A stretch of DNA of 64,000 nt, from contig NC_092673.1 of NCBI RefSeq assembly GCF_964355755.1, positions 36,093,648 through 36,157,647 on the forward strand. Reading direction: 5' to 3'. Origin of the DNA: Antedon mediterranea. Lineage: Eukaryota > Echinodermata > Crinoidea > Comatulida > Antedonidae. Below are positions 6,001-64,000 of this stretch, piece by piece; within the stretch, counting starts at the first letter, position 1, and each line of letters opens with the position of its first letter. A program made the translations under genes and the position numbers. The notes under the pieces are model-generated. The model saw only the letters and a program-made list of their open reading frames with translations, made no database searches and had not been told where the DNA came from.

Positions 6001-9000
6001 TTTACAGATAATATCTGTTGATGCACAGGGTGAATGTTTGCTGAAACTGTTAAAGAAATGTCAACAAGAAAAAGAAAAGGATATGTTGTTGGAAACATTA
6101 AGAAGACATCAGGAATGTGGAAATCATGCTAAACCAAAGAAAGTAAGTTTAGAATTAACCAAGTCATGATAAACCAAAGAAAGTAAGTTTAGAATTAACC
6201 AAGTCATGCTAAACCAAAGAAAGTAAGTTTAGAATTAACCAAGTCATGCTAAACCAAAGAAAGTAAGTTTAGAATTAACCAAGTCATGCTAAACCAAAGA
6301 AAGTAAGTTTAGAATTAACCAAGTCATGCTAAAGCAAAGAAAGTAAGTTTAGAATTAACCAAGTCATGCTAAACCAAAGAAAGTAAGTTTAGAATTAACC
6401 AAGTCATGCTAAAGCAAAGAAAGTAAGTTTAGAATTAACCAAGTCATGCTAAACCAAAGAAAGTAAGTTTAGAATTAACCAAGTCATGCTAAACCAAAGA
6501 AAGTAAGTTTAGAATTAACCAAGTCATGCTAAACCAAAGAAAGTAAGTTTAGAATTAACCAAGTCATGCTAAACCAAAGAAAGTAAGTTTAGAATTAACC
6601 AAGTCATGCTAAACCAAAGAAAGTAAGTTTAGAATTAACCAAGTCATGCTAAACCAAAGAAAGTAAGTTTAGAATTAACCAAGTCATGCTAAAGCAAAGA
6701 AAGTAAGTTTAGAATTAACCAAGTCATGCTAAACCAAAGAAAGTAAGTTTAGAATTAACCAAGTCATGCTAAACCAAAGAAAGTAAGTTTAGAATTAACC
6801 AAGTCATGCTAAACCAAAGAAAGTAAGTTTAGAATTAACCAAGTCATGCTAAACCAAAGAAAGTAAGTTTAGAATTAACCAAGTCATGCTAAAGCAAAGA
6901 AAGTAAGTTTAGAATTAACCAAGTCATGCTAAACCAAAGAAAGTAAGTTTAGAATTAACCAAGTCATGCTAAACCAAAAAAAGTAAGTTTAGAATTAACC
7001 AAGTCATGCTAAACCAAAGAAAGTAAGTTTAGAATTAACCAAGTCATGCTAAACCAAAGAAAGTAAGTTTAGAATTAACCAAGTCATGCTAAACCAAAGA
7101 AAGTAAGTTTAGAATTAACCAAGTCATGCTAAACCAAAGAAAGTAAGTTTAGAATTAACCAAGTCATGCTAAACCAAAGAAAGTAAGTTTAGAATTAACC
7201 AAGTCATGCTAAACCAAAGAAAGTAAGTTTAGAATTAACCAAGTCATGCTAAACCAAAGAAAGTAAGTTTAGAATTAACCAAGTCATGCTAAACCAAAGA
7301 AAGTAAGTTTAGAATTAACCAAGTCATGCTAAAGCAAAGAAAGTAAGTTTAGAATTAACCAAGTCATGATAAACCAAAGAAAGTAAGTTTAGAATTAACC
7401 AAGTCATGCTAAACCAAAGAAAGTAAGTTTAGAATTAACCAAGTCATGCTAAACCAAAGAAAGTAAGTTTAGAATTAACCAAGTCATGCTAAACCAAAGA
7501 AAGTAAGTTTAGAATTAACCAAGTCATGCTAAAGCAAAGAAAGTAAGTTTAGAATTAACCAAGTCATGCTAAACCAAAGAAAGTAAGTTTAGAATTAACC
7601 AAGTCATGCTAAAGCAAAGAAAGTAAGTTTAGAATTAACCAAGTCATGCTAAACCAAAGAAAGTAAGTTTAGAATTAACCAAGTCATGCTAAACCAAAGA
7701 AAGTAAGTTTAGAATTAACCAAGTCATGCTAAACCAAAGAAAGTAAGTTTAGAATTAACCAAGTCATGCTAAACCAAAGAAAGTAAGTTTAGAATTAACC
7801 AAGTCATGCTAAACCAAAGAAAGTAAGTTTAGAATTAACCAAGTCATGCTAAACCAAAGAAAGTAAGTTTAGAATTAACCAAGTCATGCTAAAGCAAAGA
7901 AAGTAAGTTTAGAATTAACCAAGTCATGCTAAACCAAAGAAAGTAAGTTTAGAATTAACCAAGTCATGCTAAACCAAAGAAAGTAAGTTTAGAATTAACC
8001 AAGTCATGCTAAACCAAAGAAAGTAAGTTTAGAATTAACCAAGTCATGCTAAACCAAAGAAAGTAAGTTTAGAATTAACCAAGTCATGCTAAAGCAAAGA
8101 AAGTAAGTTTAGAATTAACCAAGTCATGCTAAACCAAAGAAAGTAAGTTTAGAATTAACCAAGTCATGCTAAACCAAAAAAAGTAAGTTTAGAATTAACC
8201 AAGTAATGCTAAACCAAAGAAAGTAAGTTTAGAATTAACCAAGTCATGCTAAACCAAAGAAAGTAAGTTTAGAATTAACCAAGTCATGCTAAACCAAAGA
8301 AAGTAAGTTTAGAATTAACCAAGTCATGCTAAACCAAAGAAAGTAAGTTTAGAATTAACCAAGTCATGCTAAACCAAAGAAAGTAAGTTTAGAATTAACC
8401 AAGTCATGCTAAACCAAAGAAAGTAAGTTTAGAATTAACCAAGTCATGCTAAACCAAAGAAAGTAAGTTTAGAATTAACCAAGTCATGCTAAACCAAAGA
8501 AAGTAAGTTTAGAATTAACCAAGTCATGCTAAAGCAAAGAAAGTAAGTTTAGAATTAAACAAGTCATGCTAAAGCAAAGAAAGTAAGTTTAGAATTAACC
8601 AAGTCATGCTAAAGCAAAGAAAGTAAGTTTAGAATTAACCAAGTCATGCTAAAGCAAAGAAAGTAAGTTTAGAATTAACCAAGTCATGCTAAAGCAAAGA
8701 AAGTAAGTTTAGAATTAACCAAGTCATGATAAACCAAAAAGTAAGTTTAGAATTAACCAAGTCATGCTAAAGCAAAGAAAGTAAGTTTAGAATTAACCAA
8801 GTCATGCTAAAGCAAAGAAAGTAAGTTTAGAATTAACCAAGTCACGATAAACCAAAAAGTAAGTTTAGAATTAACCAAGTCACGATAAACCAAAAAGTAA
8901 GTTTAGAATTAACCAAGTCATGATAAACCAAAAAGCAAGTTTAAAATTAAACAAGTCATGATAAACCAAAAAGTAAGTTTAGAATTAACCAAGTCACAAT

Positions 9001-12000
9001 AAACCAAAAAGTAAGTTTAGAATTAACCAAGTCATGATAAACCAAAAAGTAAGTTTAGAATTAACCAAGTCACGATAAACCAAAAAGTAAGTTTAGAATT
9101 AACCAAGTCACGATAAACCAAAAAGTAGGTTTAGAATTAACCAAGTCACGATAAACCAAAAAGTAAGTTTAGAATTAACCAAGTCACGATAAACCAAAAA
9201 GTAAGTTTAGAATTAACCAAGTCATGATAAACCAAAAAGTAAGTTTAGAATTAACCAAGTCACGATAAACCAAAAAGTAAGTTTAGAATTAACCAAGTCA
9301 TGATAAACCAAAGAAAGTAAGTTTAATGTAATGTAATGTTGTTCGATTTATAAAGCACTTATACAATCAAAAGATTGTCCCAAAGCACTAAGAGAAAAAA
9401 CAGAAAGAAATTACAAAGAAAAAAGATTGGTTTTTAAGAGTGTTTTTAAAACTATGATAAAGGATGCATTTTTGATAGTTTAGGAGTATAGCTTATCCAT
9501 TTCCCCAGATGTGCTTGTTCTGCATCATGTATGATTAATTGGATGTATTGGAAGCATGGAGTAAATAATTACTCCAGGCTTAGAAGTGAAGTAATGAAGG
9601 TTCATCGTTTTCTTATTGTCTCTTTATAGAGGTACTCTATTCGAGAAGTATTGAGTGTTCCATCACGTGCACTGCGAGCTGAAAAGATGCCCAGTGGCGT
9701 TGCATCATGCTTTTCAGCAGCACATAAGAAAGAGTCTATGGAGACACAGTCTATTTACATACCTGTACAATCTGGTGATAAAGAATTTACAATGAGTGAA
9801 CACACAGCACAGAGACTGGCATACCAGCTTACACTTATGCAACAGGTAATTTATATTTACATACTTCATCTCTATTCCAAAATTTCACGTCATGTATTTC
9901 TACCTCGATATTTAGATCTTGTCAATGCAGTTTAAGTTTAAAAAACAATGAATCATTGGAATAGTGTAGCTTGGGCTAGGCATGGGTTAGGTTAGAGTAA
10001 TATTACACTGATATGAGCATATAAGTGCACAAACTCATTATTCTACAGGAATTGTTCCGTAAGGTCCATCCAGTACACTACCTAAACTCTCGCTACAATG
10101 GTATTGGTGTCGGCATGGAAGTGGATGTATCTTTGTCATCTCCTTCCATATCTCGTGCTGAGGTAGAACAAGACTATCCTAACTTGTTTGTTAATACACT
10201 CGGTGATGAGGGACTTGTTCATATACAGTTGGAGCATGCTCGTGAAGTGTCACACTGGGTTGCGGCTGAGGTTGTTACATCAGTTAGTCAAAAGGTAAGC
10301 AAGTGTCACACTGGGTTGCAGCTGAGGTTGTTACATCAGTTAGTCAAAAGGTAAGCAAGTGTCACACTGGGTTGCGGCTGAGGTTGTTACATCAGTTAGT
10401 CAAAAGGTAAGCAAGTGTCACACTGGGTTGCGGCTGAGGTTGTTACATCAGTTAGTCAAAAGGTAAGCAAGTGTCACACTGGGTTGCGGCTGAGGTTGTT
10501 ACATCAGTTAGTCAAAAGGTAAGCAAGTGTCACACTGGGTTGTGGCTGAGGTTGTTACATCAGTTAGTCAAAAGGTAAGCAAGTGTCACACTGGGTTGCG
10601 GCTGAGGTTGTTACATCAGTTAGTCAAAAGGTAAGCAAGTGTCACACTGGGTTGCGGCTGAGGTTGTTACATCAGTTAGTCAAAAGGTAAGCAAGTGTCA
10701 CACTGGGTTGCGGCTGAGGTTGTTACATCAGTTAGTCAAAAGGTAAGCAAGTGTCACACTGGGTTGCGGCTGAGGTTGTTACATCAGTTAGTCAAAAGGT
10801 AAGCAAGTGTCACACTGGGTTGCGGCTGAGGTTGTTACATCAGTTAGTCAAAAGGTAAGCAAGTGTCACACTGGGTTGCAGCTGAGGTTTTTACATCAGT
10901 TAGTCAAAAGGTAAGCAAGTGTCACACTGGGTTGCGGCTGAGGTTGTTACATCAGTTAGTCAAAAGGTAAGCAAGTGTCACACTGGGTTGCGGCTGAGGT
11001 TGTTACATCAGTTAGTCAAAAGGTAAGCAAGTGTCACACTGGGTTGCAGCTGAGGTTGTTACATCAGTTAGTCAAAAGGTAAGCAAGTGTCACACTGGGT
11101 TGCAGCTGAGGTTGTTACATCAGTTAGTCAAAAGGTAAGCAAGTGTCACACTGGGTTGCGGCTGAGGTTGTTACATCAGTTAGTCAAAAGGTAAGCAAGT
11201 GTCACACTGGGTTGCGGCTGAGGTTGTTACATCAGTTAGTCAAAAGGTAAGCAAGTGTCACACTGGGTTGCAGCTGAGGTTGTTACATCAGTTAGTCAAA
11301 AGGTAAGCAAGTGTCACACTGGGTTGCGGCTGAGGTTGTTACATCAGTTAGTCAAAAGGTAAGCAAGTGTCACACTGGGTTGCGGCTGAGGTTGTTACAT
11401 CAGTTAGTCAAAAGGTAAGCAAGTGTCACACTGGGTTGCAGCTGAGGTTGTTACATCAGTTAGTCAAAAGGTAAGCAAGTGTCACACTGGGTTGCTGCTG
11501 AGGTTGTTACATCAGTTAGTCAAAAGGTAAGCATCACGCTACAAATTTAGTTGTTATGTTTCTATTTGAATACAATCATATTTCAAATGTACATAAAAAC
11601 AGAGGTTTTTTTTGTTTTGAAAGATACCATGTTCAACTGGTGTAAATTAAAATCTTGTTCATTGTGAGATAAAAATATTACATTTTTCGTTATTTTTTCA
11701 AGTACCAAACAGCAATCCTGTGTAAGTTCATAATGATAGCTAGAGAGTGCTATGATATGAGGAATTTAGCCACCTGTATGCAGATTATTGATGCTCTAGA
11801 AAGCCTGATTGTAAGACAAGTACCGGTAGGTTTACATACTTGTGTTGCTTTTTTTTTTTATCAAATAAATTAAACTCATGGAGTCGCTATGTAAACTGCA
11901 CTACTACAAAGTTCTCTCTTCTTAAAGGCCTGGCGGAATCTTCCAAGTAAGATTGGAAGTAGTTTTGAAAAGTTAAAGGCGGCCAAAATCATTTTGAAAG

Positions 12001-13465
12001 GTGATGGAGAAAGCCTAATAAAGAATAACATTCATCATGACAAACCTACATTACCATGTTCATTGTTCCTACTGATGCATCTACAAAGTGCTGAGATCGG
12101 TGGATTCACACTTGCTAATGGCATGTATAAGTGGACAAAAATGAAGTAAGAATAATTTATATCTTTTTATCTCATTAAACATATTATTTATCGATTGACT
12201 AAAAACACTAAACTAATAAAAATCATTTTGTAAAAATTGATTGAAAAATTTACTGCATATAAAATGTTGCTCAAGTAGTGCAAAAATTCATTCTACTGTA
12301 TATTGCACAATTGTACACAGTTTGTAAACATATTTTGTTCAGGCTGACTGTCAAATAGGCTACTACTAATTGTACACAATTGTACACAGTTTGTAAACAT
12401 ATTTTGTTCAGGCTGACTGTCAAATAGGCTACTACTAATTGTGCACAATTGTACACAGTTTGTAAACATATTTTGTTCAGGCTGACTGTCAAATAGGCTA
12501 CTACTAATTGTACACAATTGTACACAGTTTGTAAACATATTTTGTTCAGGCTGACTGTCAAATAGGCTACTACTAATTGTGCACAATTGTACACAGTTTG
12601 TAAATATATTTTGTTGAGGCTGACTGTCAAATAGGCTACTACTAATTGTGCACAATTGTACACAGTTTGTAAACATATTTTGTTGAGGCTGACTGTCAAA
12701 TAGGCTACTACTAATTGTGCACAATTGTACACTGTTTGTAAACATATTTTGTTCAGGCTGACTGTCAAATAGGCTACTACTAAGTGTGCACAATTGTACA
12801 CAGTTTGTAAACATATTTTGTTGAGGCTGACTGTCAAATAGGCTACTACTAATTGTGCACAATTGTACACAGTTTGTAAACATATTTTGTTCAGGCTGAC
12901 TGTCAAATAGGCTACTACTAATTGTACACAATTGTACACAGTTTGTAAACATATTTTGTTGAGGCTGACTGTCAAATAGGCTACTACTAATTGTGCACAA
13001 TTGTACACAGTTTGTAAACATATTTTGTTCAGGCTGACTGTCAAATAGGCTACTACTAATTGTACACAATTGTACACAGTTTGTAAACATATTTTGTTCA
13101 GGCTGACTGTCAAATAGGCTACTACTAATTAACTATTTTAACTTTTATTATGCAAATTTTCACATTTTCAAGTAAATATTTCAGATACACTTAGTGTAGT
13201 TTATGCAACATTTTCTTACTTTTTCAGATCTATTGCAAAACTTGTCGACCAGATTAGAGTGTTCCAGAATCATACTTTTACCTTTGAATCTGACGCTGAA
13301 CTTCAGGAGTTGCTACAGAAACGCATCCTTCAAATGAATGACCATGACATACACTCATTGGCTGCCCAGCATTCGGCTAATTTTCACCAGCTTGCTTCAG
13401 AAAAGAGCTCAAATCGTTTTAAAGTAGCGTTTAAAAAAGTTAAACATTACACTGAAACTTTTTAA
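1..13465 (+). CDS. KNDC1: KNDC1 (very-KIND) Ras guanine-nucleotide exchange factor, C-terminal part
   Basis: Exons: <1-714, 3721-3811, 4586-4742, 4832-4963, 5155-5265, 5371-5518, 6008-6142, 9630-9845, 10049-10294, 11703-11825, 11928-12145, 13228-13465. All junctions are GT-AG and phases join cleanly to give 842 residues ending in a stop. The frame is open from base 1, so the N-terminal part, where KNDC1 carries its KIND domains, lies upstream. Residues 1-238 are Ser/Lys-rich and probably disordered. A helical stretch follows, then a RasGEF-N domain (about 335-470, around LFSYLYARQALLDGY) and a catalytic RasGEF domain (about 540-790). The tail with ANFHQLASEKSS resembles the C-terminus of vertebrate KNDC1 as I recall it. 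The family activates Ras-type GTPases by GDP release and in vertebrates acts in neurons, controlling dendrites through MAP2 binding. The Ras-GEF assignment is strong. KNDC1 rather than another GEF rests on the C-terminal match recalled by eye. Confidence 0.8.
779..1509 (+). repeat. C-rich minisatellite, left arm of the inverted repeat
   Basis: Irregular units of about 18-22 bp alternate runs of four to nine C with GGACAACTA, GGAACAATTA or TTAGGACAACTA. A block at about 1076-1200 is repeated at about 1299-1440, showing a higher-order duplication of over 200 bp. The extension of the KNDC1 exon-1 frame into it (to 851) is intron read-through and not coding. Confidence 0.85.
1510..2140. other. 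Unique spacer with degenerate AATAAACGG-like repeats
   Basis: Intronic, with no coding signal. From about 1870 to 2095 the words AATAAACGG, AATAATCGG, AATAAACA and AATAAATG recur at roughly 20-40 bp spacing, suggesting an old, decayed tandem repeat within the large inverted-repeat structure. Confidence 0.4.
2145..2620. repeat. Inner inverted repeat flanking a GGGAGACC minisatellite
   Basis: Arms of about 70 bp (2145-2214 and 2551-2620) are inverted copies with few mismatches; both carry the core GTTTCGAAACTAGAGACCCG in opposite orientation. Between them lie roughly 18 units of TATACGAAAAGGGAGACC(CCAC). The open frame at 2424-2663 only reflects the periodicity. The structure has the form of a small non-autonomous terminal-inverted-repeat element with an internal tandem array. 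Confidence 0.7.
2688..3630 (+). repeat. G-rich minisatellite with runs of 5-10 G
   Basis: About 50 units fall into successive homogeneous blocks: GTAGTTGACCGGGGGG (about 2690-2900), GTGGTTGTCCTAAGGGG (2900-3140), a GTTGTTGTCCTAGGGGG block (3140-3250), GTAGTTTTTCCGGGG (3315-3410), and GTAGTTGTCCTACTAAGG (3490-3580). The G-runs lie on the transcribed-sense strand, so intron 1 RNA could form G-quadruplexes or pair with the C-rich arm. Confidence 0.9.
5745..5856 (+). mobile_element. Possible 3' tail of a non-LTR element
   Basis: In KNDC1 intron 6, a T-rich stretch ends in GGCGAAATAAATGATATGA followed by a short TGATA repeat. This is the usual form of a LINE or SINE 3' end with a microsatellite tail. 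No body of the element is recognised. Confidence 0.3.
6123..9321 (+). repeat. 40-bp minisatellite carrying the KNDC1 exon-7 splice donor (about 80 copies)
   Basis: The unit starts in the last 20 bases of exon 7 and runs across its donor: CATGCTAAACCAAAGAAA then GTAAGTTTAGAATTAACCAA. About 65 near-identical 40-bp units reach about 8730. About 15 shorter, more diverged 37-bp units (CCAAAAAGTAAGT, often CACGAT) follow to 9321. Almost every unit keeps a full GTAAGT. Only the first donor (6143) is compatible with the protein, because read-through meets TGA at 6167-6169. Confidence 0.97.
10247..11534 (+). repeat. 56-bp minisatellite carrying the KNDC1 exon-9 splice donor (about 23 copies)
   Basis: Each unit consists of the last 48 bases of exon 9 (encoding CHTGLRLRLLHQLVKR-like text out of frame) plus GTAAGCAA. 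The first copy is the real exon end, with its donor at 10295. Later copies differ by only a few substitutions (GCGG/GCAG/GTGG). Use of any later donor would read into TAA at 10352-10354. The 8-nt 'intron' between copies is far too short to be spliced. Confidence 0.97.
12288..13130 (+). repeat. 69-bp minisatellite in KNDC1 intron 11 (about 12 copies)
   Basis: The unit contains ATTTTGTTCAGGCTGACTGT and TACTACTAATTGTGCACAAT. Because 69 is a multiple of three and the unit lacks stops in two reverse frames, long minus-strand open frames appear by periodicity alone. Unlike other arrays in this gene it does not copy a real junction, although TTTTGTTCAG resembles a 3' splice site. Confidence 0.95.
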
Positions 13466-13743
13466 ACTATAATAATTATAGTAATATCTTATTGTTTGCC
13501 TCTCTGCCAATGACATTTAGTCAGGTTAACATTTTATGCTGTCCTGTTCGTTTTAATGACAATATGAATTAAAAAAATAGTATACATAATAATATAATAA
13601 TAATATATATAGTGTATATATATGCAGTATTAAACAAGTTTTAAATATGACAATCTAAAAAAACATTTTTAATTTTAATGTGTGTGAAAATATCAATGTG
13701 TGTCATATATTATATATTCAATCTATTTTATGTACAGTACTAC

Positions 13744-13749
13744 AATAAA
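13744..13749 (+). promoter_or_regulatory. Candidate polyadenylation signal of KNDC1
   Basis: AATAAA lies about 280 bases after the stop codon, in an AT-rich 3' region. Confidence 0.5.
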
Positions 13750-13960
13750 TGTTTTAAATATCTAAGATGTAAAATTTAACTGAAAGAAGAAGTTGCGATA
13801 AATCATTGAGGTGTTGAAATCAATAAAGGAAACTTAAATACGTTAAATTACAAATTATTGGTTGGGAAGTTTATGAAAATTTGTCAATTTTAAATGAATG
13901 TGAAATAAGGTTATAAAATACATCACAGTGACTTGGTTTGCCACAAACTGACGCATCCAG

Positions 13961-14198
13961 CATTTGTCGTATTTGATTGGGACTTTTACCGTTGAGTATA
14001 GTTTTTCCGTTGTTGAGTACTTATTTATCGAAGTATTTTGAGCGTTGAGATTGTTCTTAACGAAAAAGTTTACGTTGTTAACGTTTTCTATTCAATGATT
14101 TTCTATTGAGCACATTCCGTTTAAAATTTACCATTCGAATACAACAAGTACTCAACGAATCTTTATCGAACGAAAGTTCCCAATCGAATACGACAATT
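13961..14198. mobile_element. Hairpin MITE-like element, about 240 bp
   Basis: The two ends are inverted copies: TTGTCGTATTTGATTGGGA on the left, and on the right the reverse complement of TTGTCGTATTCGATTGGGA. Similarity continues inward (GTTGAGTACTT near both ends), so most of the element can fold on itself. No coding capacity. Superfamily not assigned. Confidence 0.65.
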
Positions 14199-14640
14199 GA
14201 TGCCATATGGACGATCCCCAAACCAAACCGCGCGCTATTCACTAATAGCTATTCCGTGATTGGTTAAATATCTTCACGGTAGAGGGCCGTCCATACTTGA
14301 CATACACACGTGCAGCTTACTAAACTAGGCTAGCTACTAGTTACTGTAAATTCACTTACTTCTTCAAGTATACCAAACGTTCTTTGGATTGGTATATCGG
14401 CAATTTAAATCTTAGGAAGACACTTATAAAGAAGAGGGAAGGTATGTTTTTTTAAATCAAAATTGAGGAAATCTAGATCTCGGCTAATTCGTACGTTGTT
14501 AAAAGAGGTAAGCTCGTGAAATCATATGTATCGTCGCCTTTAGGCTTATTTGTCAGTGTTTTTTAATGCTATCTCAGACGGTATTTAATTATTGTTTTTA
14601 CGCGTGCTAAGGGCCTATCATTCATAACATTATGACATAT

Positions 14641-14930
14641 TACACTTAAAGATGTGTTGTCCCCAAAAACAAGAAAAATTAATTAAATCAGAATTTGAAG
14701 AGGTTATTTTGTAGTTTTAATCAAATCAATCTATTCCGAATAAATGGTTAAATTCAACCAAAAACTCATTGGCTGGCAGCCAATTTGACAATTAAATTAC
14801 AGTTTTTTCAGGTAAATAATACATTTTTTCGATTCAATTTTTGTCAAAGTGGATCACTTTTATGTGACATTAAAATTGCATATTCAACAACAAAAATAGT
14901 TAATGCTTTAATAATAATCAGCTTCTGCAT
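14641..14930 (+). repeat. Dispersed repeat family R1, copy 1
   Basis: It shares with 22600-22800 and with the reverse complement of 25240-25470 the ordered words TTGTCCCC, GGTTAAA, TCAGGTAAATA, TTTTTGTCAAAGTG and GACATTAAA. The left end AAAGATGTGTTGTCCCC mirrors GGGGGACAAAATCTTTA at the end of the 22600 copy, suggesting short terminal inverted repeats of a MITE. Confidence 0.5.
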
Positions 14931-15055
14931 AATCCAAAATCACCTTCGTGAACTCTTAACGAGCGGAAGTTATTTTTCCGAGGTACTGATATTATAATCT
15001 CAACAACCAGACCAGAAGCTGTTCTGGCTTAGCCTATATCATTTTAAAAAAAATC

Positions 15056-16603
15056 ATGGCGGACTCGGTAATAAAAACGATCATTTTAATGCTACTGATA
15101 ACTTTACTCAGTGTTGGAAATGGCCGACATACACATAGACGGAATAAAACTAGAGGCGACCCCAAGAAGAAGAACGTATTAATAATGTTTGTTGACGATG
15201 GTGGATTTGAAAGCCCAGTGTACAATAATACAGTCTGCAAAACTCCAAACTTGTCCGCATTTGCTAAGCGTAGCGTTGTATTACGTAGAGCCTATACATC
15301 TGTGAGCAGTTGTTCACCAAGTCGCTCTGCTTTACTCACTGGACTACCACAGCATCAGAACGGTATGTACGGATTACATCACTCATTCCATCATTTTGAA
15401 TCATTTGAAGGAGTCAAAAGTATCCCACTGATTCTAAAGGACCATGGTGTTCGGACGGGCATAATTGGTAAGAAGCATATAGGGCCTGATGACGTTTATA
15501 AATTCGATTACGAAAGAACAGACGAACATTACAGTATGTTACAAGTTGCTAGGAACATCACTAACATGAAAATTCTTGTGAATGAATTTCTATCCATGGA
15601 TGATCGTCCGTTTTTCCTTTATATTGCTTTCAAAGATGTTCACAGATGCGATGCAGGTATTGAAAAATATGGACAATTTTGTGAACGATTTGGAAATGGT
15701 AGCCAAGAGACGGGAACTATTCCAGATTGGAAACCAGCATATTACGACCCATTTGACGTCATTGTGCCATACTTTCTACCCGACACATTGGCAACCAGAC
15801 AAGAAATTTCAGCACAGTATACGTCGGTCAGTAGAATGGACCAAGGGGTCGGACTTTTCCTAAACGAACTAAAATCGTTGGGGTTCCTTGATAACACGTT
15901 GGTTATCTACACTGCAGACAATGGTATACCTTTCCCTAACGCAAAAACAAATCTGTACGAAAGCGGCATGGGTGAACCAATGATTATATCATCTCCTATG
16001 CACACCGAACGTTGGGGTGAGATTAGTGATGCTATGGCCAGTACTATTGATATTGTACCGACAATACTAGATTGGTTTGGAGTTGACTACCCATCATACC
16101 TCCTTAATGGTGTCACTGTGAATCTGAGTGGCAAATCTTTACTTCCAATATTGACTTCTGAACCAACAACGGGAGAGAAGTTTGATGAAGTGTTTTCCAG
16201 TCATGATCTACACGAAATAACAATGTACTACCCAATGAGAGTTGTACGCAATCGTCAGTACAGACTAATACATAACCTGAACCACGCCACGTCATATCCG
16301 ATCGCACTCGACATTTTCATGTCCCCAACATTCCAAGACACGTTAAACCGATCCCATGAAGGAAAGCCAACCAACTGGTTCAAGTCTTTACACCAGTATT
16401 ACTATCGACCAGAGTGGGAACTGTACGATGTCAACAATGATCCACAAGAATTGACCAACTTGATAGATAACTCGACACTGGCTGACATGGTGAAGAACCT
16501 GAAGACCAGCTTACAGGCATGGCTAAAAGAAACCAATGATCCGTGGCAATGCCTACCTAATGGCGTGTTAGTTGGGTCTGAATGTTGGCCTCTTTATAAC
16601 TGA
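15056..16603 (+). CDS. SGSH: N-sulphoglucosamine sulphohydrolase (heparan N-sulfatase, sulfamidase)
   Basis: A single uninterrupted frame of 515 residues, close to the roughly 502 of the human enzyme. It begins with a hydrophobic signal peptide (residues about 5-22, IKTIILMLLITLLSVG), as expected for a lysosomal enzyme. FVDDGGFE (Asp47/Asp48, metal ligands) and SSCSPSRSALLTG follow; Cys86 in CSPSR is the residue converted to formylglycine by SUMF1. GLPQHQNGMYGLH, GIIGKKHIGP, TADNGIPFP and the C-terminal WELYDVNNDP are sulfamidase-type. The enzyme removes N-sulfate from glucosamine during lysosomal heparan sulfate breakdown. Start: ATG in AAATCATGGCG directly before the signal peptide. Odd: no introns, whereas the human gene has several, so a retrocopy origin is possible. 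Several N-glycosylation sequons are present (e.g. NNT, NIT, NGS). Confidence 0.95.
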   Translation: MADSVIKTIILMLLITLLSVGNGRHTHRRNKTRGDPKKKNVLIMFVDDGGFESPVYNNTVCKTPNLSAFAKRSVVLRRAYTSVSSCSPSRSALLTGLPQHQNGMYGLHHSFHHFESFEGVKSIPLILKDHGVRTGIIGKKHIGPDDVYKFDYERTDEHYSMLQVARNITNMKILVNEFLSMDDRPFFLYIAFKDVHRCDAGIEKYGQFCERFGNGSQETGTIPDWKPAYYDPFDVIVPYFLPDTLATRQEISAQYTSVSRMDQGVGLFLNELKSLGFLDNTLVIYTADNGIPFPNAKTNLYESGMGEPMIISSPMHTERWGEISDAMASTIDIVPTILDWFGVDYPSYLLNGVTVNLSGKSLLPILTSEPTTGEKFDEVFSSHDLHEITMYYPMRVVRNRQYRLIHNLNHATSYPIALDIFMSPTFQDTLNRSHEGKPTNWFKSLHQYYYRPEWELYDVNNDPQELTNLIDNSTLADMVKNLKTSLQAWLKETNDPWQCLPNGVLVGSECWPLYN

Positions 16604-16876
16604 TGGAGCAGCCATGTATCGCACAATAGCACAATTATTACATTCATTGATATTCTAAAATACTACCTCATTTTTTTCTTAACGGCTAAAACAATCCATG
16701 ACATGTTATGGATACTGGCCTTATTATTATTATTATTGTTATTATTAATGTGAACTTGCAATGGTATATTGGCATGCTTCGTATATTTAGGGCTTACGCC
16801 TATTATGTATTATGGTATATTATGTATTTTCATACATTTTCATAATATTATTATAAAGAAACTTTATTTGTATTGT

Positions 16877-16882
16877 AATAAA
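16877..16882 (+). promoter_or_regulatory. Candidate polyadenylation signal of SGSH
   Basis: AATAAA about 275 bases after the SGSH stop. SGSH and AS3MT are arranged tail to tail, with stops under 800 bp apart. A small direct duplication (TTTACCATAATGCACGGATG, about 16990-17060) lies between them. Confidence 0.5.
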
Positions 16883-22134: not shown

Positions 22135-22214
22135 GATGAAGAATAATACGATCAAAATATCGAAGATTAGGGTATTTTGTATATAGGCCTAGTCGTCTTT
22201 TGTTATACCGGCGG

Positions 22215-29414: not shown

Positions 29415-31440
29415 CTATGCTTTACTCAAGTCCTTATTTAGTGTAAATAGTTCTTCTCCTTGCTTTATAGCGTAATCAATGCCTTCACATATTTCCTGCC
29501 ATTTCTTTGGCACAAACTCCAATCCATAATAAGCTCCACCAATAGCACCGGCCATTGTTGCTATTGTATCTGTATCTCCATCCATTGTAATGGCGTAAAG
29601 TATGGTACGCACAAGGCCATTATCTGTTGGAATACTTTCAATGTGTTTAACTGATCGCAAGAAACAGAAGATTGCTGTAACTACAGATTGATGTGCTGCT
29701 ATGCCATTGCCTGTAAAAATATGAAATTAAACTTTACATATTTCTCATTCTATACACCATCAACAGTGTATGACATCCTTTCCCTTTAGAATATTACATA
29801 CCAAGTTGTTCAACCACTTTTTATTTTAAACTTTACATATTTCTCATTCTATACACCATAAACAGTGTATGACATCCTTTAGAATATTACATACCAAGTT
29901 GTTCAACCACCTCTTTATTTTCTACATTATTCCTTTTCAAAAATTCTTTTACAATTTTCAACTTGTTTGCATATACTGCTTCCTCAGAAACACGCTCATC
30001 AAATCTATTTTAAAAACAATAGAAAATAATGCAATCAGTAATTTTAGACATAAAGATAATATTTTATTTAATAATTTATTTTACTGAAGTAGAACAGAAG
30101 TAATAATTATACCTTGATTTTGTAGCTTCGCTGACTTCTTCTGCTCCTCCTTCAACATGTTTCATTATATCAATTAATCCATCAACAAGTTTATCTGTAT
30201 CGATATCCGTTCCATTGTCAATGTGAAGCACATTGTGGATTGCACAGCATAGTAACAATGCACCATTATATCCTAAGCTGTTAGAATGTGTTAAACGGGC
30301 AGAGTCAACAGCAACCTATGTAGTAGATCATTTGTTAAAATTATTGAACCTTTTTTGCCACTTGACAGTATCGCCATTTTAAATATGAAATGTGGAATCA
30401 TGTTTAGTTTGAATTCTTGTTGATCAAAGCATATTGATCGAAACATCGAGAAACTCAACAGTTATTTTCAGAACTAATACACGTGGTGTACCGCAAACTT
30501 TATATCAACAATTTTGAAAATCCACAAAGTTGGTCATTGAACCTACCTGTTTCATAGTTTCAAAGTTATTGTAGAAAGCAAGAGCAACTGGTGCTACTCT
30601 CATTGCTCCACCATTCCCATAAGATCCACTCCCATTAAATTGTGTTGTTGCTGGATGATAAATATTGGTTAATGCAGGGTCCGCTAATCTTTGAAATATA
30701 TCTGTTACATTTGCTCCATACCCTCTCCAGTTCTCCTTTACGTATTCATCATTGAATCTGCAATTTTGATTAGGAAATTCAAAATGATATATGCAGCACA
30801 GAAATTGAATGGAACAATAAATATGAAACATAATAATTATAATGTTGAATAGATTGTGCTACCTTTTAGCCATATCCCGTGCATTAAACTTGCATGTACT
30901 CTCTATGAGGGACTGAGCAACTGACCTGGCCATAGCTGTATCATCTGTAAACTTTAGTTTCTCTGTAAATGCAGAAAAAACACACTCACAAATGCTGGAC
31001 ACATAGATATATCAGTACCATAATGCAGGAGTGCAAGTATACAATTTATTAGGTTCAATTTAATGGTTTATTATTATAGAAGTGATTGTTGTTGTTCACT
31101 CACAGTATTATTTACTTATTCTATTATGTTCATTTTATATGTATGAACCCTAACCCTAACCCTAACCCACTGAAGTGGATTTTCTATTTTATGTATGAAC
31201 TGCCCACTGAAGTGGATTTTCTATTTTTACAATTCAACTTAAAGATGAGAAGGATGCATGAATCATTTGGAACGTACTAGAATCAAAACTCAACTCCTCT
31301 TCAAACTTGATAACCTTGTTGACACTTTCAACACCACATACTTCAAACGGAGCACCAAGGCAGTCGCCAGCAACTGCAGCTGCCAAACAACCCTGAAAGC
31401 GAGCCTTTAACTTGTGTCCCCATGCTGCAGTTGCAGACAT
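29415..31440 (-). CDS. ADPRS: ADP-ribosylserine hydrolase ARH3
   Basis: Exons in transcript order: 31440-31278, 30962-30863, 30757-30547, 30315-30113, 30004-29895, 29710-29415; all GT-AG and in phase, 360 residues (human 363). It is an ADP-ribosylglycohydrolase fold. FQGCLAAAVAGDCLGAPFE opens the domain (Glu33 in the place of human Glu41). FTDDTAMA (Thr60, Asp61, Asp62), GSYGNGGAMRVAP, LTHSNSLGYNGA and DGDTDTIATMAGAIGGAYYG (Asp308, Asp310, Thr311) supply the di-magnesium site. ARH3 removes serine-linked mono-ADP-ribose and degrades poly(ADP-ribose) after DNA damage, in nucleus, cytosol and mitochondria. All key residues are present, so the enzyme should be active. The start at MSATAAWGHK is chosen because it directly precedes the domain; a longer upstream reading lacks support. 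Confidence 0.96.
29727..29913 (-). repeat. Tandem duplication carrying the ADPRS exon-5 splice donor
   Basis: Two copies of about 90 bp: 29827-29913 includes the last bases of exon 5 and its donor (reverse strand CAACTTGGTATGTAA), and 29727-29812 lies in the intron. The intronic copy keeps GTGGTTGAACAACTTG and GTATGT intact. Read-through from the real donor meets TAA at once, so the distal donor cannot give a normal protein. Confidence 0.85.
31147..31168 (+). repeat. Short interstitial telomeric repeat
   Basis: Almost four perfect CCCTAA units (TTAGGG on the minus strand) in ADPRS intron 1, followed by a 42-bp-spaced duplication of ACTGAAGTGGATTTTCTATT (about 31169-31225). Confidence 0.9.
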
Positions 31441-33031: not shown

Positions 33032-36000
33032 ATGCAACATGACGATGTAAGTATTTCTTTATTTGGGATCTTCATTTAAACATTGATTTCAATATTAGTT
33101 TAATTTCTAATTTCTTATAATATCACTATCTAGGCATCTAGAATTTAAATTCTAGGCTAGGCTAGGCCTAGTCCTCGGAGGACTAGAAGTCCGTCCTTCC
33201 TTGTGTAGGATTAGGAACTAGGGAGCCTGACCCTGGGTCGATTCGTCCCAGGAACAATTCAACCCGGCAATATTATTGTATGTTATTAGCCTATAGTAGT
33301 AGGTAAATTAATTTTATACACAACAACTTCAAACACTTTCTCTTGACTTAGATTTATTTGCATTTTAAATCACAAATTGCATTTATGATTTAATTAAAAA
33401 CAAAGAAAAGTGGCTAACCACCGAAATGAGCCAGTTTCATTAAAACTTTACCAAAACTGTATCCAATTTAGTTTTAGATTGTCTTTTTCTGGTTCAGTTA
33501 GCCAGACAATAATTATGTTGTATGAATAAAAATGAAATGAATTCATTATTTTTTTTTAAAATAATTACTGTTGTCTTGTCACAGGTCATATGGAGTATTA
33601 TTAACACCACATTCTGCTCATACAAAGTGAATTCGAAAACAACACAGTTTTGCCGTAATGAGTATAACTTAACAGGTTTATGTAACCGATCAGCCTGCCC
33701 TCTTGCTAACAGTCAATATGCAACAATCCGTGAAGAAAACGGTTAGTTTAGTAGATTATACACTTTCAGTTTTGCCGTAATGAGTATAACTTAACAGGTT
33801 TATGTAACCGATCAGCCTGCCCTCTTGCTAACAGTCAATATGCAACAATCCGTGAAGAAAACGGTTAGTTTAGTAGATTATACACTTTCAGTTTTGCCGT
33901 AATGAGTATAACTTAACAGGTTTATGTAATCGATCAGCCTGCCCTGTTGCTAACAGTCAATATGCAACAATCCGTGAAGAAAACGGTTAGTTTAGTAGAT
34001 TATACACTTTCAGTTTTGCCGTAATGAGTATAACTTAACAGGTTTATGTAACCGATCAGCCTGCCCTCTTGCTAACAGTCAATATGCAACAATCCGTGAA
34101 GAAAACGGTTAGTTTAGTAGATTATACACTTTCAGTTTTGCCGTAATGAGTATAACTTAACAGGTTTATGTAATCGATCAGCCTGCCCTGTTGCTAACAG
34201 TCAATATGCAACAATCCGTGAAGAAAACGGTTAGTTTAGTAGATTATACACTTTCAGTTTTGCCGTAATGAGTATAACTTAACAGGTTTATGTAACCGAT
34301 CAGCCTGCCCTCTTGCTAACAGTCAATATGCAACAATCCGTGAAGAAAACGGTTAGTTTAGTAGATTATACACTTTCAGTTTTGCTGTAATGAGTATAAC
34401 TTAACAGGTTTATGTAATCGATCAGCCTGCCCTGTTGCTAACAGTCAATATGCAACAATCCGTGAAGAAAACGGTTAGTTTAGTAGATTATACACTTTCG
34501 TAGTTACAATGTAAAGAGCAAGAAGTATTTAGGTGCTTTAATAATAATACTGTAATAATGACATTATATGTTTTATGTTGATAGGTGTTTGACATTATAT
34601 GGATTATATGTTTTATGTTGATAGGTGTTTGACATTATATGGATTATATGTTTTATGTTGATAGGTGTTTGACATTATATGGATTATATGTTTTATGTTG
34701 ATAGGTGTTTGACATTATATGCATTATATGTTTTATGTTGATAGGTGTTTGACATTATATGGATTATATGTTTTATGTTGATAGGTGTTTGACATTATAT
34801 GCATTATATGTTTTATGTTGATAGGTGTTTGACATTATATGGATTATATGTTTTATGTTGATAGGTGTTTGACATTATATGGATTATATGTTTTATGTTG
34901 ATAGGTGTTTGACATTATATGGATTATATGTTTTATGTTGATAGGTGTTTGACATTATATGGATTATATGTTTTATGTTGATAGGTGTTTGACATTATAT
35001 GGATTATATGTTTTATGTTGATAGGTGTTTGACATTATATGGATTATATGTTTTATGTTGATAGGTGTTTGACATTATATGCATTATATGTTTTATGTTG
35101 ATAGGTGTTTGACATTATATGGATTATATGTTTTATGTTGATAGGTGTTTGACATTATATGGATTATATGTTTTATGTTGATAGGTGTTTGACATTATAT
35201 GGATTATATGTTTTATGTTGATAGGTGTTTGACATTATATGGATTATATGTTTTATGTTGATAGGTGTTTGACATTATATGGATTATATGTTTTATGTTG
35301 ATAGGTGTTTGACATTATATGGATTATATGTTTTATGTTGATAGGTGTTTGACATTATATGGATTATATGTTTTATGTTGATAGGTGTTTGACATTATAT
35401 GGATTATATGTTTTATGTTGATAGGTGTTTGACATTATATGGATTATATGTTTTATGTTGATATGTGTTTGACATTATATGGATTATATGTTTTATGTTG
35501 ATAGGTGTTTGACATTATATGGATTATATGTTTTATGTTGATAGGTGTTTGACATTATATGGATTATATGTTTTATGTTGATAGGTGTTTGACATTATAT
35601 GGATTATATGTTTTATGTTGATAGGTGTTTGACATTATATGGATTATATGTTTTATGTTGATAGGTGTTTGACATTATATGGATTATATGTTTTATGTTG
35701 ATAGGTGTTTGACATTATATGGATTATATGTTTTATGTTGATATGTGTTTGACATTATATGGATTATATGTTTTATGTTGATAGGTGTTTGACATTATAT
35801 GGATTATATGTTTTATGTTGATAGGTGTTTGACATTATATGGATTATATGTTTTATGTTGATAGGTGTTTGACATTATATGCATTATATGTTTTATGTTG
35901 ATAGGTGTTTGACATTATATGGATTATATGTTTTATGTTGATAGGTGTTTGACATTATATGGATTATATGTTTTATGTTGATAGGTGTTTGACATTATAT

Positions 36001-39000
36001 GCATTATATGTTTTATGTTGATAGGTGTTTGACATTATATGGATTATATGTTTTATGTTGATAGGTGTTTGACATTATATGGATTATATGTTTTATGTTG
36101 ATAGGTGTTTGACATTATATGGATTATATGTTTTATGTTGATAGGTGTTTGACATTATATGGATTATATGTTTTATGTTGATAGGTGTTTGACATTATAT
36201 GGATTATATGTTTTATGTTGATAGGTGTTTGACATTATATGGATTATATGTTTTATGTTGATAGGTGTTTGACATTATATGCATTATATGTTTTATGTTG
36301 ATAGGTGTTTGACATTATATGGATTATATGTTTTATGTTGATAGGTGTTTGACATTATATGGATTATATGTTTTATGTTGATAGGTGTTTGACATTATAT
36401 GGATTATATGTTTTATGTTGATAGGTGTTTGACATTATATGGATTATATGTTTTATGTTGATAGGTGTTTGACATTATATGGATTATATGTTTTATGTTG
36501 ATAGGTGTTTGACATTATATGGATTATATGTTTTATGTTGATAGGTGTTTGACATTATATGGATTATATGTTTTATGTTGATAGGTGTTTGACATTATAT
36601 GGATTATATGTTTTATGTTGATAGGTGTTTGACATTATATGGATTATATGTTTTATGTTGATATGTGTTTGACATTATATGGATTATATGTTTTATGTTG
36701 ATAGGTGTTTGACATTATATGGATTATATGTTTTATGTTGATAGGTGTTTGACATTATATGGATTATATGTTTTATGTTGATAGGTGTTTGACATTATAT
36801 GGATTATATGTTTTATGTTGATAGGTGTTTGACATTATATGGATTATATGTTTTATGTTGATAGGTGTTTGACATTATATGGATTATATGTTTTATGTTG
36901 ATAGGTGTTTGACATTATATGGATTATATGTTTTATGTTGATAGGTGTTTGACATTATATGGATTATATGTTTTATGTTGATAGGTGTTTGACATTATAT
37001 GGATTATATGTTTTATGTTGATAGGTGTTTGACATTATATGGATTATATGTTTTATGTTGATATGTGTTTGACATTATATGGATTATATGTTTTATGTTG
37101 ATAGGTGTTTGACATTATATGGATTATATGTTTTATGTTGATAGGTGTTTGACATTATATGGATTATATGTTTTATGTTGATAGGTGTTTGACATTATAT
37201 GGATTATATGTTTTATGTTGATATGTGTTTGACATTATAATGACATTATATGTTTTATGTTGATAGGTGTTTGACATTATATGGATTATATGTTTTATGT
37301 TGATAGGTGTTTGACATTATATGGATTATATGTTTTATGTTGATAGGTGTTTGACATTATATGGATTATATGTTTTATGTTGATAGGTGTTTGACATTAT
37401 ATGGATTATATGTTTTATGTTGATAGGTGTTTGACATTATATGGATTATATGTTTTATGTTGATAGGTGTTTGACATTATATGGATTATATGTTTTATGT
37501 TGATAGGTGTTTGACATTATATGGATTATATGTTTTATGTTGATAGGTGTTTGACATTATATGGATTATATGTTTTATGTTGATAGGTGTTTGACATATG
37601 GATTATATGTTTTATGTTGATAGGTGTTTGACATTATATGGATTATATGTTTTATGTTGATAGGTGTTTGACATTATATGGATTATATGTTTTATGTTGA
37701 TAGGTGTTTGACATTATATGGATTATATGTTTTATGTTGATAGGTGTTTGACATTATATGGATTATATGTTTTATGTTGATAGGTGTTTGACATTATATG
37801 CATTATATGTTTTATGTTGATAGGTGTTTGACATTATATGGATTATATGTTTTATGTTGATAGGTGTTTGACATTATATGGATTATATGTTTTATGTTGA
37901 TAGGTGTTTGACATTATATGGATTATATGTTTTATGTTGATAGGTGTTTGACATTATATGGATTATATGTTTTATGTTGATAGGTGTTTGACATTATATG
38001 GATTATATGTTTTATGTTGATAGGTGTTTGACATTATATGGATTATATGTTTTATGTTGATAGGTGTTTGACATTATATGCATTATATGTTTTATGTTGA
38101 TAGGTGTTTGACATTATATGGATTATATGTTTTATGTTGATAGGTGTTTGACATTATATGCATTATATGTTTTATGTTGATAGGTGTTTGACATTATATG
38201 GATTATATGTTTTATGTTGATAGGTGTTTGACATTATATGGATTATATGTTTTATGTTGATAGGTGTTTGACATTATATGGATTATATGTTTTATGTTGA
38301 TAGGTGTTTGACATTATATGGATTATATGTTTTATGTTGATAGGTGTTTGACATTATATGGATTATATGTTTTATGTTGATAGGTGTTTGACATTATATG
38401 GATTATATGTTTTATGTTGATAGGTGTTTGACATTATATGGATTATATGTTTTATGTTGATAGGTGTTTGACATTATATGGATTATATGTTTTATGTTGA
38501 TAGGTGTTTGACATTATATGCATTATATGTTTTATGTTGATAGGTGTTTGACATTATATGCATTATATGTTTTATGTTGATAGGTGTTTGACATTATATG
38601 GATTATATGTTTTATGTTGATAGGTGTTTGACATTATATGGATTATATGTTTTATGTTGATAGGTGTTTGACATTATATGGATTATATGTTTTATGTTGA
38701 TAGGTGTTTGACATTATATGGATTATATGTTTTATGTTGATATGTGTTTGACATTATATGGATTATATGTTTTATGTTGATAGGTGTTTGACATTATATG
38801 GATTATATGTTTTATGTTGATAGGTGTTTGACATTATATGGATTATATGTTTTATGTTGATAGGTGTTTGACATTATATGGATTATATGTTTTATGTTGA
38901 TAGGTGTTTGACATTATATGCATTATATGTTTTATGTTGATAGGTGTTTGCTTTTTGTACATGAAAACAATAGAGAGAGCAGCATTTCCATCAAAGTTAT

Positions 39001-40202
39001 GGGAAAAGGTTAAGTTATCAAAGAATTATGAGAAGGCCTTACAACAAATAGATGATCAGCTACGATACTGGCCAAATTTCATCAAACACAAGTGTAAACA
39101 GCGTTTTACGAAAATCACACAATACTTGATACGTATGAGAAAACTTGTTTTAAAAAGACAGTAAGTTAAAATTGGATCAAACTGAACAGAAAATGATGTG
39201 CAAATTTCAATGGTATAATAGCAAAAAATTAGAATTAGTAACAACATGTAATAATATATATGATAAATAACATTTAGGTTGTCTATAAAGCTAAATATAG
39301 TCAGCCCAATTAAAACCAAGCATGTACTGTAGTCCATATCATAATATAATACATTTTGTCGAGTTCACATGATTTCAGATATTTTGATATTTTTACAGGA
39401 GAAAACTTGTTCCAATAAGCCGTAAAGTAGAAAGACGAGAGGAACGTAGGGAACAAAAGGCTTTGGTTGCAGCACAGCTTGATAATGCTATTGAGAAAGA
39501 GCTCTTGGAACGACTTAAAAAAGGAACTGTGAGTATTATTGTTCCGTGTGTAGGCCTGCTTTTTATATTTCACATAGAACACCATGTATATGTGTGACTG
39601 GTCTTTTTTTGCAGTATGGCGATATATACAATTTCCCAGCACATGCATTTGATAAGGCGTTAGATGCTCAGGAAGAAGATGAAAGTGAAGTGGAAGGAGA
39701 ACAAGAAGAAGAATATGAGGAAGAGGTAATGTCATTTAATCGCCTTTCTTGGATCTTTACACCTGAATATATGTTTGATAGTGTTAAGAAATTAGAAAAG
39801 TTGAGTTGGATTAACATTGATAAAAATGCTTGTTACTTTAGGAACCTGAAGTAGAATATGTGGCAGAAGGTGACTTTGAAGAAAGTGATTTAAGTGACTT
39901 TGAGGTGAGTTGGAACACATGATATAATAATAATCATTTTATTATTAATTTGTTATGTAAGTAGATGCAGATGCATTTGGTATTTAAAAGTATATTCAAT
40001 TTGTGCATAAATCAATATTTGTATTTTTTTGCAGGAGATGGACAAACTCCACAACATAAGCGATGATAATTCAAGTAGTTCAGATGAAGAGCAAAAGAAA
40101 AGTGTGAAAAAAATGTTCAAAAAGAAAAGACCACGAGTTGAAATAGAATATGAAAAAGAACTTGATCAGCCATCAACATCAAAACTAACTCTAAAATCAT
40201 GA
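33032..40202 (+). CDS. MAK16: MAK16 ribosome-biogenesis factor
   Basis: Exons 33032-33046, 33585-33741, 38944-39160, 39399-39528, 39615-39725, 39842-39904 and 40035-40202; phases consistent, 286 residues (human about 300). Exon 1 codes only MQHDD. VIW and the cysteine-rich segment [20 protein letters not shown] follow, then [11 protein letters not shown], the basic core [40 protein letters not shown] and [20 protein letters not shown], then [16 protein letters not shown], an acidic tail ([18 protein letters not shown]) and a short basic end with VEIEYE. MAK16 is a nucleolar protein that acts with RPF1 in early 60S pre-ribosome assembly. Introns 1-2 are remarkable: intron 2 (33742-38943) is almost wholly made of two minisatellites that copy its own donor and its own acceptor. 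Confidence 0.98.
33648..34499 (+). repeat. 122-bp array carrying the MAK16 exon-2 end and donor (7 copies)
   Basis: The unit is the last 94 bases of exon 2 (from TTTTGCCGTAATGAG), the donor GTTAGT and 22 further intron bases ending CACTTTCAG. Copies start at 33648 (real exon), 33770, 33892, 34014, 34136, 34258 and 34380. From copy 2 on, variants with AACCGATC/CCTCTTGC and AATCGATC/CCTGTTGC strictly alternate, so the later growth was by a 244-bp dimer. Read-through of the first donor gives AAC GGT TAG, a stop. Confidence 0.97.
34559..38943 (+). repeat. 40-bp minisatellite carrying the MAK16 exon-3 splice acceptor (about 110 copies)
   Basis: The unit is GACATTATATGGATTATATG plus TTTTATGTTGATAGGTGTTT. 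The last unit is the real 3' splice site (TTTTATGTTGATAG, exon from 38944 GTGTTTGC), so every copy carries the same acceptor and the first six exon bases. Rare variants are GCATTATATG and GATATGTG (AG lost). Two phase breaks occur near 37240 and 37597. Splicing to any copy except the last gives GGT GTT TGA, an immediate stop. Confidence 0.97.
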
Positions 40203-49830: not shown

Positions 49831-50031
49831 TTAGAGAATGCCACATTTGCCCTTATCCTTGTAATGATTTTCACCGCTTGGTGGGATTCCAGTCAAAAGC
49901 ATATCCTTATCACGATGTTCCACACAGTATTCACGTAGACTGGTTGCAGCTTGTGATACAAGCAAGCGTTTGATTGCCGCCTCACGTTTTAGTTGTTCGA
50001 CAACTTTCTTCATATTCTGGACACCAGTCAT
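49831..50031 (-). CDS. Heterotrimeric G-protein gamma subunit (GNG5-like)
   Basis: 66 residues in one coding exon. MKKVVEQLKREAAIKRLLVSQAA matches the N-terminal coiled-coil helix that pairs with G-beta (closest by eye to vertebrate GNG5). LREYCVEHRDKDMLLTGIP is the family core. The end CGIL is a CaaX box with Leu last, predicting geranylgeranylation and membrane anchoring. The usual ENPF motif before the CaaX box reads ENHY. The ATG directly follows a good 3' splice site (TTCTATTTTAAACAG), so a non-coding 5' exon exists upstream on the minus strand, perhaps near the CTAGGC-rich segment 50170-50250 or the GC-richer 50440-50540. Partner of the second gamma gene 1.5 kb upstream. Confidence 0.92.
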   Translation of the reverse strand: MTGVQNMKKVVEQLKREAAIKRLLVSQAATSLREYCVEHRDKDMLLTGIPPSGENHYKDKGKCGIL

Positions 50032-51196: not shown

Positions 51197-51294
51197 TCAC
51201 AATTTCAAATAATAAAGTCTTATATATGAATTCATGACTTGTGTTTTGCCAATCTTCCCACCAATGAGGCAATTAAGTTCTTGTCATCAATGGG

Positions 51295-51420
51295 ATCACA
51301 TCTTTCACATAATGGAATTATTCAGTGAATGCCTCTCTGATGAGGACGGTTAGTAGAGGGACCACATCTTTCACATAATGGAATTATTCAGTGAATGCCT
51401 CTCTGATGAGGACGGTTAGT
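51295..51420. repeat. Direct duplication of about 60 bp
   Basis: Two near-perfect copies containing CACATCTTTCACATAATGGA and CTCTGATGAGGACGGTTAGT, about 66 bp apart. Confidence 0.9.
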
Positions 51421-51538: not shown

Positions 51539-52033
51539 TTATATTAAACAACATGGTCTGCTACTCATTCTGTAAGGAGAAACACGTCCTGGGTTGTCAG
51601 CTGTTGGACCTCCTGTCAGTAAAAAGTCATTTTTTCCAAGTGAAATGCAGTATTGTTTGAGATCAAGTGCTGCTTCTGATACTGGGATTCGAACAATTGA
51701 TGCCTCTCTTTTTAACTGTTTGATGTCCTGTCTTAAGCGCATTGACTCTGTTTTGATTCTATACTGAACTCTGTGGTATGAAGAAATAAACTTTATGATA
51801 GATACTAATTTAACCTTGTTCACTCAACTGAAATGTAATGCATTCGATCAGTAATAAAAATAATAATAATAATCAATAATATTAATGAAAGTACAGAGTA
51901 GCCTTGTCTACCAAACGTAACGTCACATTTTATTTCCATTTGTCTTATCTTTCGTCATTTTCGTCATTACTTCTGTTCACTATAACAAAGTGTTATACAT
52001 TCTCACAGTAAAAAATGCTTACCTTGGATCCAT
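51539..52033 (-). CDS. Divergent heterotrimeric G-protein gamma subunit
   Basis: Exons 52033-52023 (MDP plus two bases) and 51770-51539, joined at AG/GTAAGC and CCACAG/AG; 80 residues. IKQLKREASIVRIPVSEAALDLKQYC is the G-gamma helix, followed by GKNDFLLTGGP. The C-terminus CCLI is a CaaX-type prenylation signal with an extra Cys. The NPF motif is replaced by DNPGRVSPYRM, an extended linker, so this is an atypical paralogue. The tiny first coding exon is chosen because it supplies an ATG in phase with a canonical donor. A start at internal Met (MRLRQ) would give 67 residues, nearer the family norm, and cannot be excluded. Divergent from DNAAF9, ATGs 1.1 kb apart. Confidence 0.85.
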
Positions 52034-53134
52034 TGTAATGTTGAAACTTCACCACTCAATCGTGTAGTTACAATAAGATTGAAATCCTATGTATGACAGC
52101 AGTTCAAACTTCACTTTCATTACCTATTAAATTAGATTTATTCACAGCGATTCAATAATAAAACATCGATACTACTAAAGTAAATACATTAACCATCGGC
52201 GGTCGACGTCTAATTACGCATTACACGCAAACAAGGGCGTATACTAAATAACCAACTTAGTTCCTACAACCAACTCTGGCATTATAAACTGCTCGATATA
52301 CTACTACAATATTATAAGGCCCCTGGACAAACTGAGAACAACATAATTTACAGAAAATATGACTTACTTAGCTTTATAAATTCGACTGAATATGACTCAT
52401 TATCACCTCTTCGTTCACGTTAAACTGGTGTATAAGTAAGACAAGAAGAAGACTTAGCAGCCAATGTATGGAATGCTCAACTCTCATATCCGGAAGAAGT
52501 GACGTGGTATATTAAGCACAGTGGTAAAGGATATTGCTTTTATCTTTCCGGTAGTATGGTCGACCAAATAAGGTGTGATGTTAAAAAGATAACGGCGCGT
52601 CAATACACTTTTTTTTTTCAAATTACAATTTTTAGTATTTAGTATAGTATTACTTTGTATGGAGTTTACACTTTATTTTCAATATAGTGGGCGCGCCTTT
52701 GACCGACTCATGGTTCTGTAACTACTGGATCCTCTGTTATGCTTTTTAATTGCCATCATAGATAGGAACGGAATCCTCAGCGTCTACGCGCCGCCAAACA
52801 TGTTTTTTTCTTGAAACAACGTCGGAGAATCGTGTTTATTGCTTAATTTTCGTAAAATCGAATCACAGAACGTGATGTCAAACCTGAATAGCTATTTGCA
52901 TTACTTAAATCCATATGTAAACTGTTTTTTTAGTACTGAGATATTCATTGCGTTGTTTTGAATTTTTAATTAGCAGTGAACTTGCTAGCCAATCACAATG
53001 TAGCAAATTGGAATCCAGGGTGATGTTTATACCACGTGACCATAATCAAAATGGCGTTTTTGTTGTTGTAAAAATGAGGAAGGTCGTGTGAAATACAAAA
53101 CATTATTAGGCCTAGACGTTGATTAAATAAGAAG
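52034..53134. other. Divergent promoter region between the second G-gamma gene and DNAAF9
   Basis: No coding exon. A less AT-rich stretch around 52440-52560 and another at 53020-53100 (CCACGTGACC, an E-box-like word) may be the two promoters. No convincing RFX X-box was found for the ciliary gene. Confidence 0.4.

Positions 53135-64000
<10,866 letters not shown>

Follow-up and report, generated by a model that had tools for sequence, protein, structure and literature searches.

Minisatellites are ordinary components of introns and subtelomeric DNA, where they have units of 20-120 bp, show high identity between copies, and are dense near contig ends. Splice signals can also be part of a duplicated segment. 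In intron 7 of the human F7 gene, 37-bp repeats span the donor, and only the most upstream donor is normally used (PMC6627357). The first repeat carries the authentic 5' splice site, and an oriented mechanism picks the upstream one (PMC6627357). Splice signals are also duplicated in a described route of intron gain, in which an AG/GT proto-splice site undergoes tandem duplication and duplicated exon sequence becomes a new intron (PMC2891723).

Here we describe tandem arrays that cover exon-intron junctions in a 64-kb stretch of a crinoid genome (the window; C4:36093648-36157647). With ordinary minisatellites, these arrays share unit size, copy identity, and density near a contig end. However, their units include exon sequence and a functional-looking splice site. 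With F7 intron 7, they share tandem units, an authentic 5' splice site in the first unit, and homologous distal donors. F7 is a single human locus in which only the donor is repeated, in few copies, whereas the crinoid arrays are found in many genes, also involve acceptors and a whole microexon, affect both ends of one intron, and reach up to ~110 copies. An earlier statement that no named system of this kind is known was thus too strong, because F7 intron 7 is a precedent (PMC6627357). A search of the open literature on junction minisatellites found no precedent beyond F7. To judge from their units, the donor arrays appear to be further cases of the F7 type. The acceptor arrays, the microexon array, the double-ended intron, and the presence of more than 100 decoys go beyond the precedents found in that literature and would follow from the same logic. 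As in intron gain, a duplication that bears splice signals can leave the mRNA unchanged. However, the present arrays occupy one intron end; the rest of the intron includes non-repeat sequence, and its opposite end has a separate site. Intron gain by duplication, in which the whole intron would be one copy bounded by duplicated AG/GT, was rejected as a source because the introns hold non-repeat sequence.

Genomic setting of the window

The window lies ~35 kb from a contig end in an animal genome of 354 Mb and 18 contigs. It contains KNDC1, a sulfatase, a methyltransferase, and a mitochondrial carrier gene, ADPRS, MAK16, two G-gamma genes, and DNAAF9. The curated gene model of the window has 107 junctions, and more than one quarter of the window is taken up by tandem arrays. 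The genes that carry the arrays discussed below were confirmed through PDB or Pfam matches. KNDC1 was identified by matches to the RasGEF and RasGEF_N domains (Pfam), ADPRS by a match of its last exon to ARH3 (E 4e-28), MAK16 by a match of the exons adjoining both of its arrays to PDB 8fkp (E 4e-63), and DNAAF9 by DAAF9 domains (E 4e-62 to 2e-73). Both G-protein gamma-like genes are short (49831-50031 and 51542-51770) and are placed antisense, on the minus strand, between a DUF4517 gene at 43 kb and the DNAAF9 exons; one of them has a Pfam G-gamma match.

Several dispersed repeats were also observed. Arrays of the GGACAACTACCCCC type lie at 809-3630 of the window, and this type has more than 90 matches across many contigs. 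A dispersed 21-bp repeat, GTGATATGCCCAAATATGGTA, is present at 54232-54281 and near exons on several chromosomes. A reversed donor word, TGAATGGA, at a spacing of 20-50 bp gave 1815 forward and 175 reverse matches genome-wide, a strand imbalance that suggests a single large array in one orientation. Elsewhere in the genome, more than 20 similar myosin head exon matches spread over 5.5 Mb of C3 (19.6-25.1 Mb), which suggests a very large myosin gene family.

Arrays that span exon-intron junctions

The sequence-only reading had listed eight arrays, each said to start on a splice junction. All eight exist: seven were recovered by TRF and the eighth, a duplication with copies at 62247 and 62362, was recognized by eye. 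They do cover and copy exon-intron junctions. However, they span the junctions instead of starting there.

Two arrays span donors of KNDC1 on the plus strand. The first (6124-9325; 40 bp x 80.7) has a unit of 19 exon and 21 intron nt; its authentic donor follows position 6142, and 65 distal donors have an equal score. The second (10245-11533; 56 bp x 23) has a unit of 50 exon and 6 intron nt, with the authentic donor after 10294 and 22 distal donors of equal score. In ADPRS, on the minus strand, a 99-bp segment is present twice (29727-29921), and the authentic donor is the low end of exon 29895-30004.

A single plus-strand intron of MAK16 is multiplied at both ends, with seven copies of a donor segment at its start and ~110 copies of an acceptor segment at its end. 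The donor array (33645-34499; 122 bp x 7) has a unit of 97 exon and 25 intron nt. Its authentic donor follows 33741, and six distal donors score alike. The acceptor array (34563-38950; 40 bp x 109.7) has a unit of 33 intron and 7 exon nt, and the authentic acceptor, before 38944, is accompanied by 103 identical distal acceptors. Joining exons 33585-33741 and 38944-39160 yields a protein that matches human MAK16 (E 4e-63). Each donor unit also contains an in-frame 66-nt stretch with a weak acceptor and a weak donor.

DNAAF9, on the plus strand, carries the remaining three arrays of the window. One of them (54446-54649; 50 bp x 4.1, 100% identical) repeats a 29-nt microexon (54449-54477) together with both of its junctions. 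The DAAF9_N score was 219.9 bits without this microexon and 246.6 bits with it, and this gain of 27 bits indicates that it is a real exon. The downstream copies lack the T-rich (pyrimidine) tract, and their acceptor score is -6.0 versus 3.2. The duplication missed by TRF (62200-62430; the 62235 case) consists of two diverged copies of ~115 bp, with the authentic acceptor before 62362 and a weaker copy before 62247. The third array (63618-64000; 102 bp x 3.8) has a unit of 61 intron and 41 exon nt and runs beyond the window to C4:36157774, giving five copies when extended. Its fifth copy enters a coding exon that starts at extended coordinate 64087. The authentic acceptor is located there, and four distal acceptors score as high. 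Within 2.3 kb past the window there are three more duplications that span DNAAF9 donors, at extended coordinates 64572-64664, 65369-65692, and 66145-66303 (C4:36158219-36159950).

Junction-spanning arrays were also found in exon sets that were picked blindly, that is, by Pfam family and ignoring repeats. Six such arrays were present in ~120 kb of sequence, of which 61 kb came from TCP1 chaperonin exons and 58 kb from 105 kinesin exons. The TCP1 set had three donor arrays in one CCT gene (C4:29.705-29.708 Mb) and one in another CCT gene (C7:23.672 Mb), and the kinesin set had acceptor arrays at C5:31.795 Mb and C7:0.437 Mb. In other words, junction-spanning arrays are real and recur in unrelated genes on other chromosomes. 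The donor-spanning type, in which the unit holds an exon end with its 5' splice site and the first copy sits on the coding exon, is represented by two arrays in KNDC1, one each in ADPRS and MAK16, three in DNAAF9, and those of the CCT genes.

The strength of the copied sites was assessed with a splice-site matrix (PWM) trained on kinesin exons of the same genome. Distal and authentic sites scored equally in most arrays. Distal donors were comparable to the authentic one in KNDC1, MAK16, ADPRS, and two DNAAF9 arrays, but not in the DNAAF9 duplication at 64572. The sites of other copies are weaker in the 64572 and 62235 cases, and in the microexon array the acceptors of the later copies are lost. 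The sequence-only reading had noted that distal sites lead to an in-frame stop. Such stops are present at the three donors tested (24, 57, and 2 nt past the donor on read-through). However, they carry no evidential value because they are expected in any AT-rich intron.

A proposed model for junction-spanning arrays

How can a gene tolerate so many extra splice sites? The reading we favor, to which we assign a probability of roughly two in three, is that ordinary tandem duplications arose with breakpoints placed nearly at random in a genome rich in minisatellites and then passed through a selective filter. When a duplicated segment lies across a junction, one outermost copy stays on the intact coding exon, as the first copy at a donor and as the last at an acceptor. 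Since this exon-attached copy remains, normal mRNA would still be possible and the allele would survive. Duplications within coding exons would be removed by selection. Purging in exons together with survival at junctions would lead repeats to accumulate in introns and on junctions, and not inside exons. Some duplications would later have been amplified into long arrays, presumably by replication slippage or unequal exchange.

The exon-attached site would be the one that is spliced, through either oriented selection or exon definition, and the distal copies would be neutral decoys. At donors, the exon-attached site is the first to be transcribed. An acceptor row ends with its authentic site, so simple first-AG use would fail, and the acceptor arrays likely work through exon definition. 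The earlier idea of tolerance, with the exon-attached site retained and distal copies acting as decoys, fits the arrays seen. The rate of arrays at junctions in the blind samples is also compatible with random seeds.

The anatomy of the units can be considered in terms of the same filter. All five acceptor units retain ~33-61 intron nt, and donor units retain 2-72. An intron portion of ~33 nt or more in acceptor units is enough for a pyrimidine tract and possibly a branch point. Donor arrays outnumber acceptor arrays at junctions by 11 to 5 (P 0.21). A filter for working exon-attached sites fits the retained intron lengths and could also yield the surplus of donors. A mobile element or introner as source was rejected for the MAK16 donor unit, the only unit searched, since each of its seven matches in a genome-wide search lay at the MAK16 locus itself.

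Are duplications more frequent at junctions?

A different origin, which we consider a minority possibility, is that processes coupled to transcription or splicing (R-loops, a stalled polymerase, or template switching) seed duplications preferentially at exon-intron borders. Under this explanation, duplications would be about twice as frequent on borders as elsewhere, with a bias to donors. The sequence-only reading had estimated a threefold enrichment from a null of one touching array in ten. That null was replaced by one in which arrays are collapsed to single units and length-matched seeds are placed randomly, those wholly inside coding exons being forbidden. The collapsed null gives ~13% per array in the window.

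Against this null, 7 of the 25 arrays of the window span junctions and 3.30 are expected (P 0.036). The enrichment is thus nominally present but only about twofold, in a window chosen by that reader. The count speaks more strongly for border-linked seeding when the window from 4 kb onward is combined with the 2.3-kb extension (10 of 24 versus 3.40, P 0.0006), although this region was also picked by the reader. In the unselected extension, all three arrays span DNAAF9 donors; taken alone, three versus 1.65 expected is not significant (P 0.15). A ninth window case (51292-51420; 66 bp x 2, with a donor-like GTTAGT) was dropped because its frame had no DAAF9_N support. With its provisional exon (51226-51348) the window count was 8 of 25 before the case was withdrawn.

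The blind samples provide the counterweight. Four of 19 arrays span junctions in the TCP1 exons (1.86 expected), and two of 10 do so in the kinesin exons (1.71 expected). The pooled count, 6 of 29 versus 3.6, is not significant (P ~0.15, Poisson). One CCT gene on C4 has three donors affected, which would suit border-linked seeding. However, hits of this kind are grouped in few genes and are hence not independent. The P values are optimistic because touching arrays cluster in this way and because one kinesin array was counted as two pieces.

A crude genome-wide comparison of words points in the same direction as the blind samples. Arrays of the donor word AGGTAAGT with a period of 39-58 bp were not in excess over those of the scrambled word GGATTAGA. 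The initial 43% of the genome gave four AGGTAAGT arrays, and the whole genome gave four GGATTAGA arrays; both counts are small and were judged by eye. The array rate per word was 7.4e-4 for AGGTAAGT, extrapolated from that 43%, versus 6.9e-4 for GGATTAGA, with 12,558 and 5,785 word occurrences, respectively; about half of the AGGTAAGT occurrences may be something other than donors. Only independent arrays were counted, as raw pair counts are dominated by copy number in few giant arrays.

The scattered register of the units also speaks against border-linked seeding. The share of the unit that lies upstream of the junction varies between 0.14 and 0.96 (~0.41 in the 62235 case, with ~47 intron nt), and no preferred breakpoint or fixed register was found across the junction-spanning units. 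Against near-random breakpoints, the junctions tend toward the 3' portion of their units (mean 0.63, KS P 0.07). Preferential seeding, as claimed earlier, is thus not upheld by the blind counts, the similar word rates, and the variable register. Nevertheless, junctions may carry an excess of arrays reaching about twofold at most, and the pooled data lean toward it.

A less probable explanation of such an excess has no role for splicing. Exon-like DNA would duplicate more often, exon-internal duplications would be purged, and those at the edges would remain. Units off junctions have a GC content of 0.368, which is above the intron background (0.316; exons, 0.397). However, a GC-weighted null lifts the window expectation only slightly, from 3.43 to 3.63, and GC matching also makes little difference to the blind samples. 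GC composition was therefore rejected as the source of the excess, its effect being negligible under the GC-matched null.

Possible function of the decoys and integrity of the assembly

The decoys might themselves be functional, with selection maintaining multiplied sites that slow or tune how the host intron is spliced. The strong distal sites of most arrays and the multiplication of both ends of one MAK16 intron would be in keeping with such a role. We nevertheless regard it as improbable, given that the array junctions are spread among unrelated genes, that the distal sites of the 62235 and 64572 cases have decayed, and that the microexon copies lack acceptors. An assembly artefact through collapse or expansion of long reads is very improbable, for although assemblies can mis-size arrays longer than 3 kb, the diverged two-copy cases and the non-identical copies within long arrays cannot arise from a simple assembly loop, and the same anatomy is seen at many loci.

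Significance

Under ordinary duplication with a selective filter, the arrays have no special origin. Even so, they are natural experiments in splice-site choice. In MAK16, the authentic acceptor lies behind 103 identical copies, and in KNDC1 an authentic donor lies ahead of 65. Such arrays bear on whether the choice among identical sites depends on where they lie relative to the exon, for donors and acceptors apart. They also mislead gene finders. For example, a simple gene predictor inserted six extra in-frame pseudo-exons into MAK16 from the donor array at 33645-34499. If there is a true excess at junctions, it would point to mutation coupled to transcription or splicing, and the crinoid genome would offer a natural system for junction-targeted mutation.
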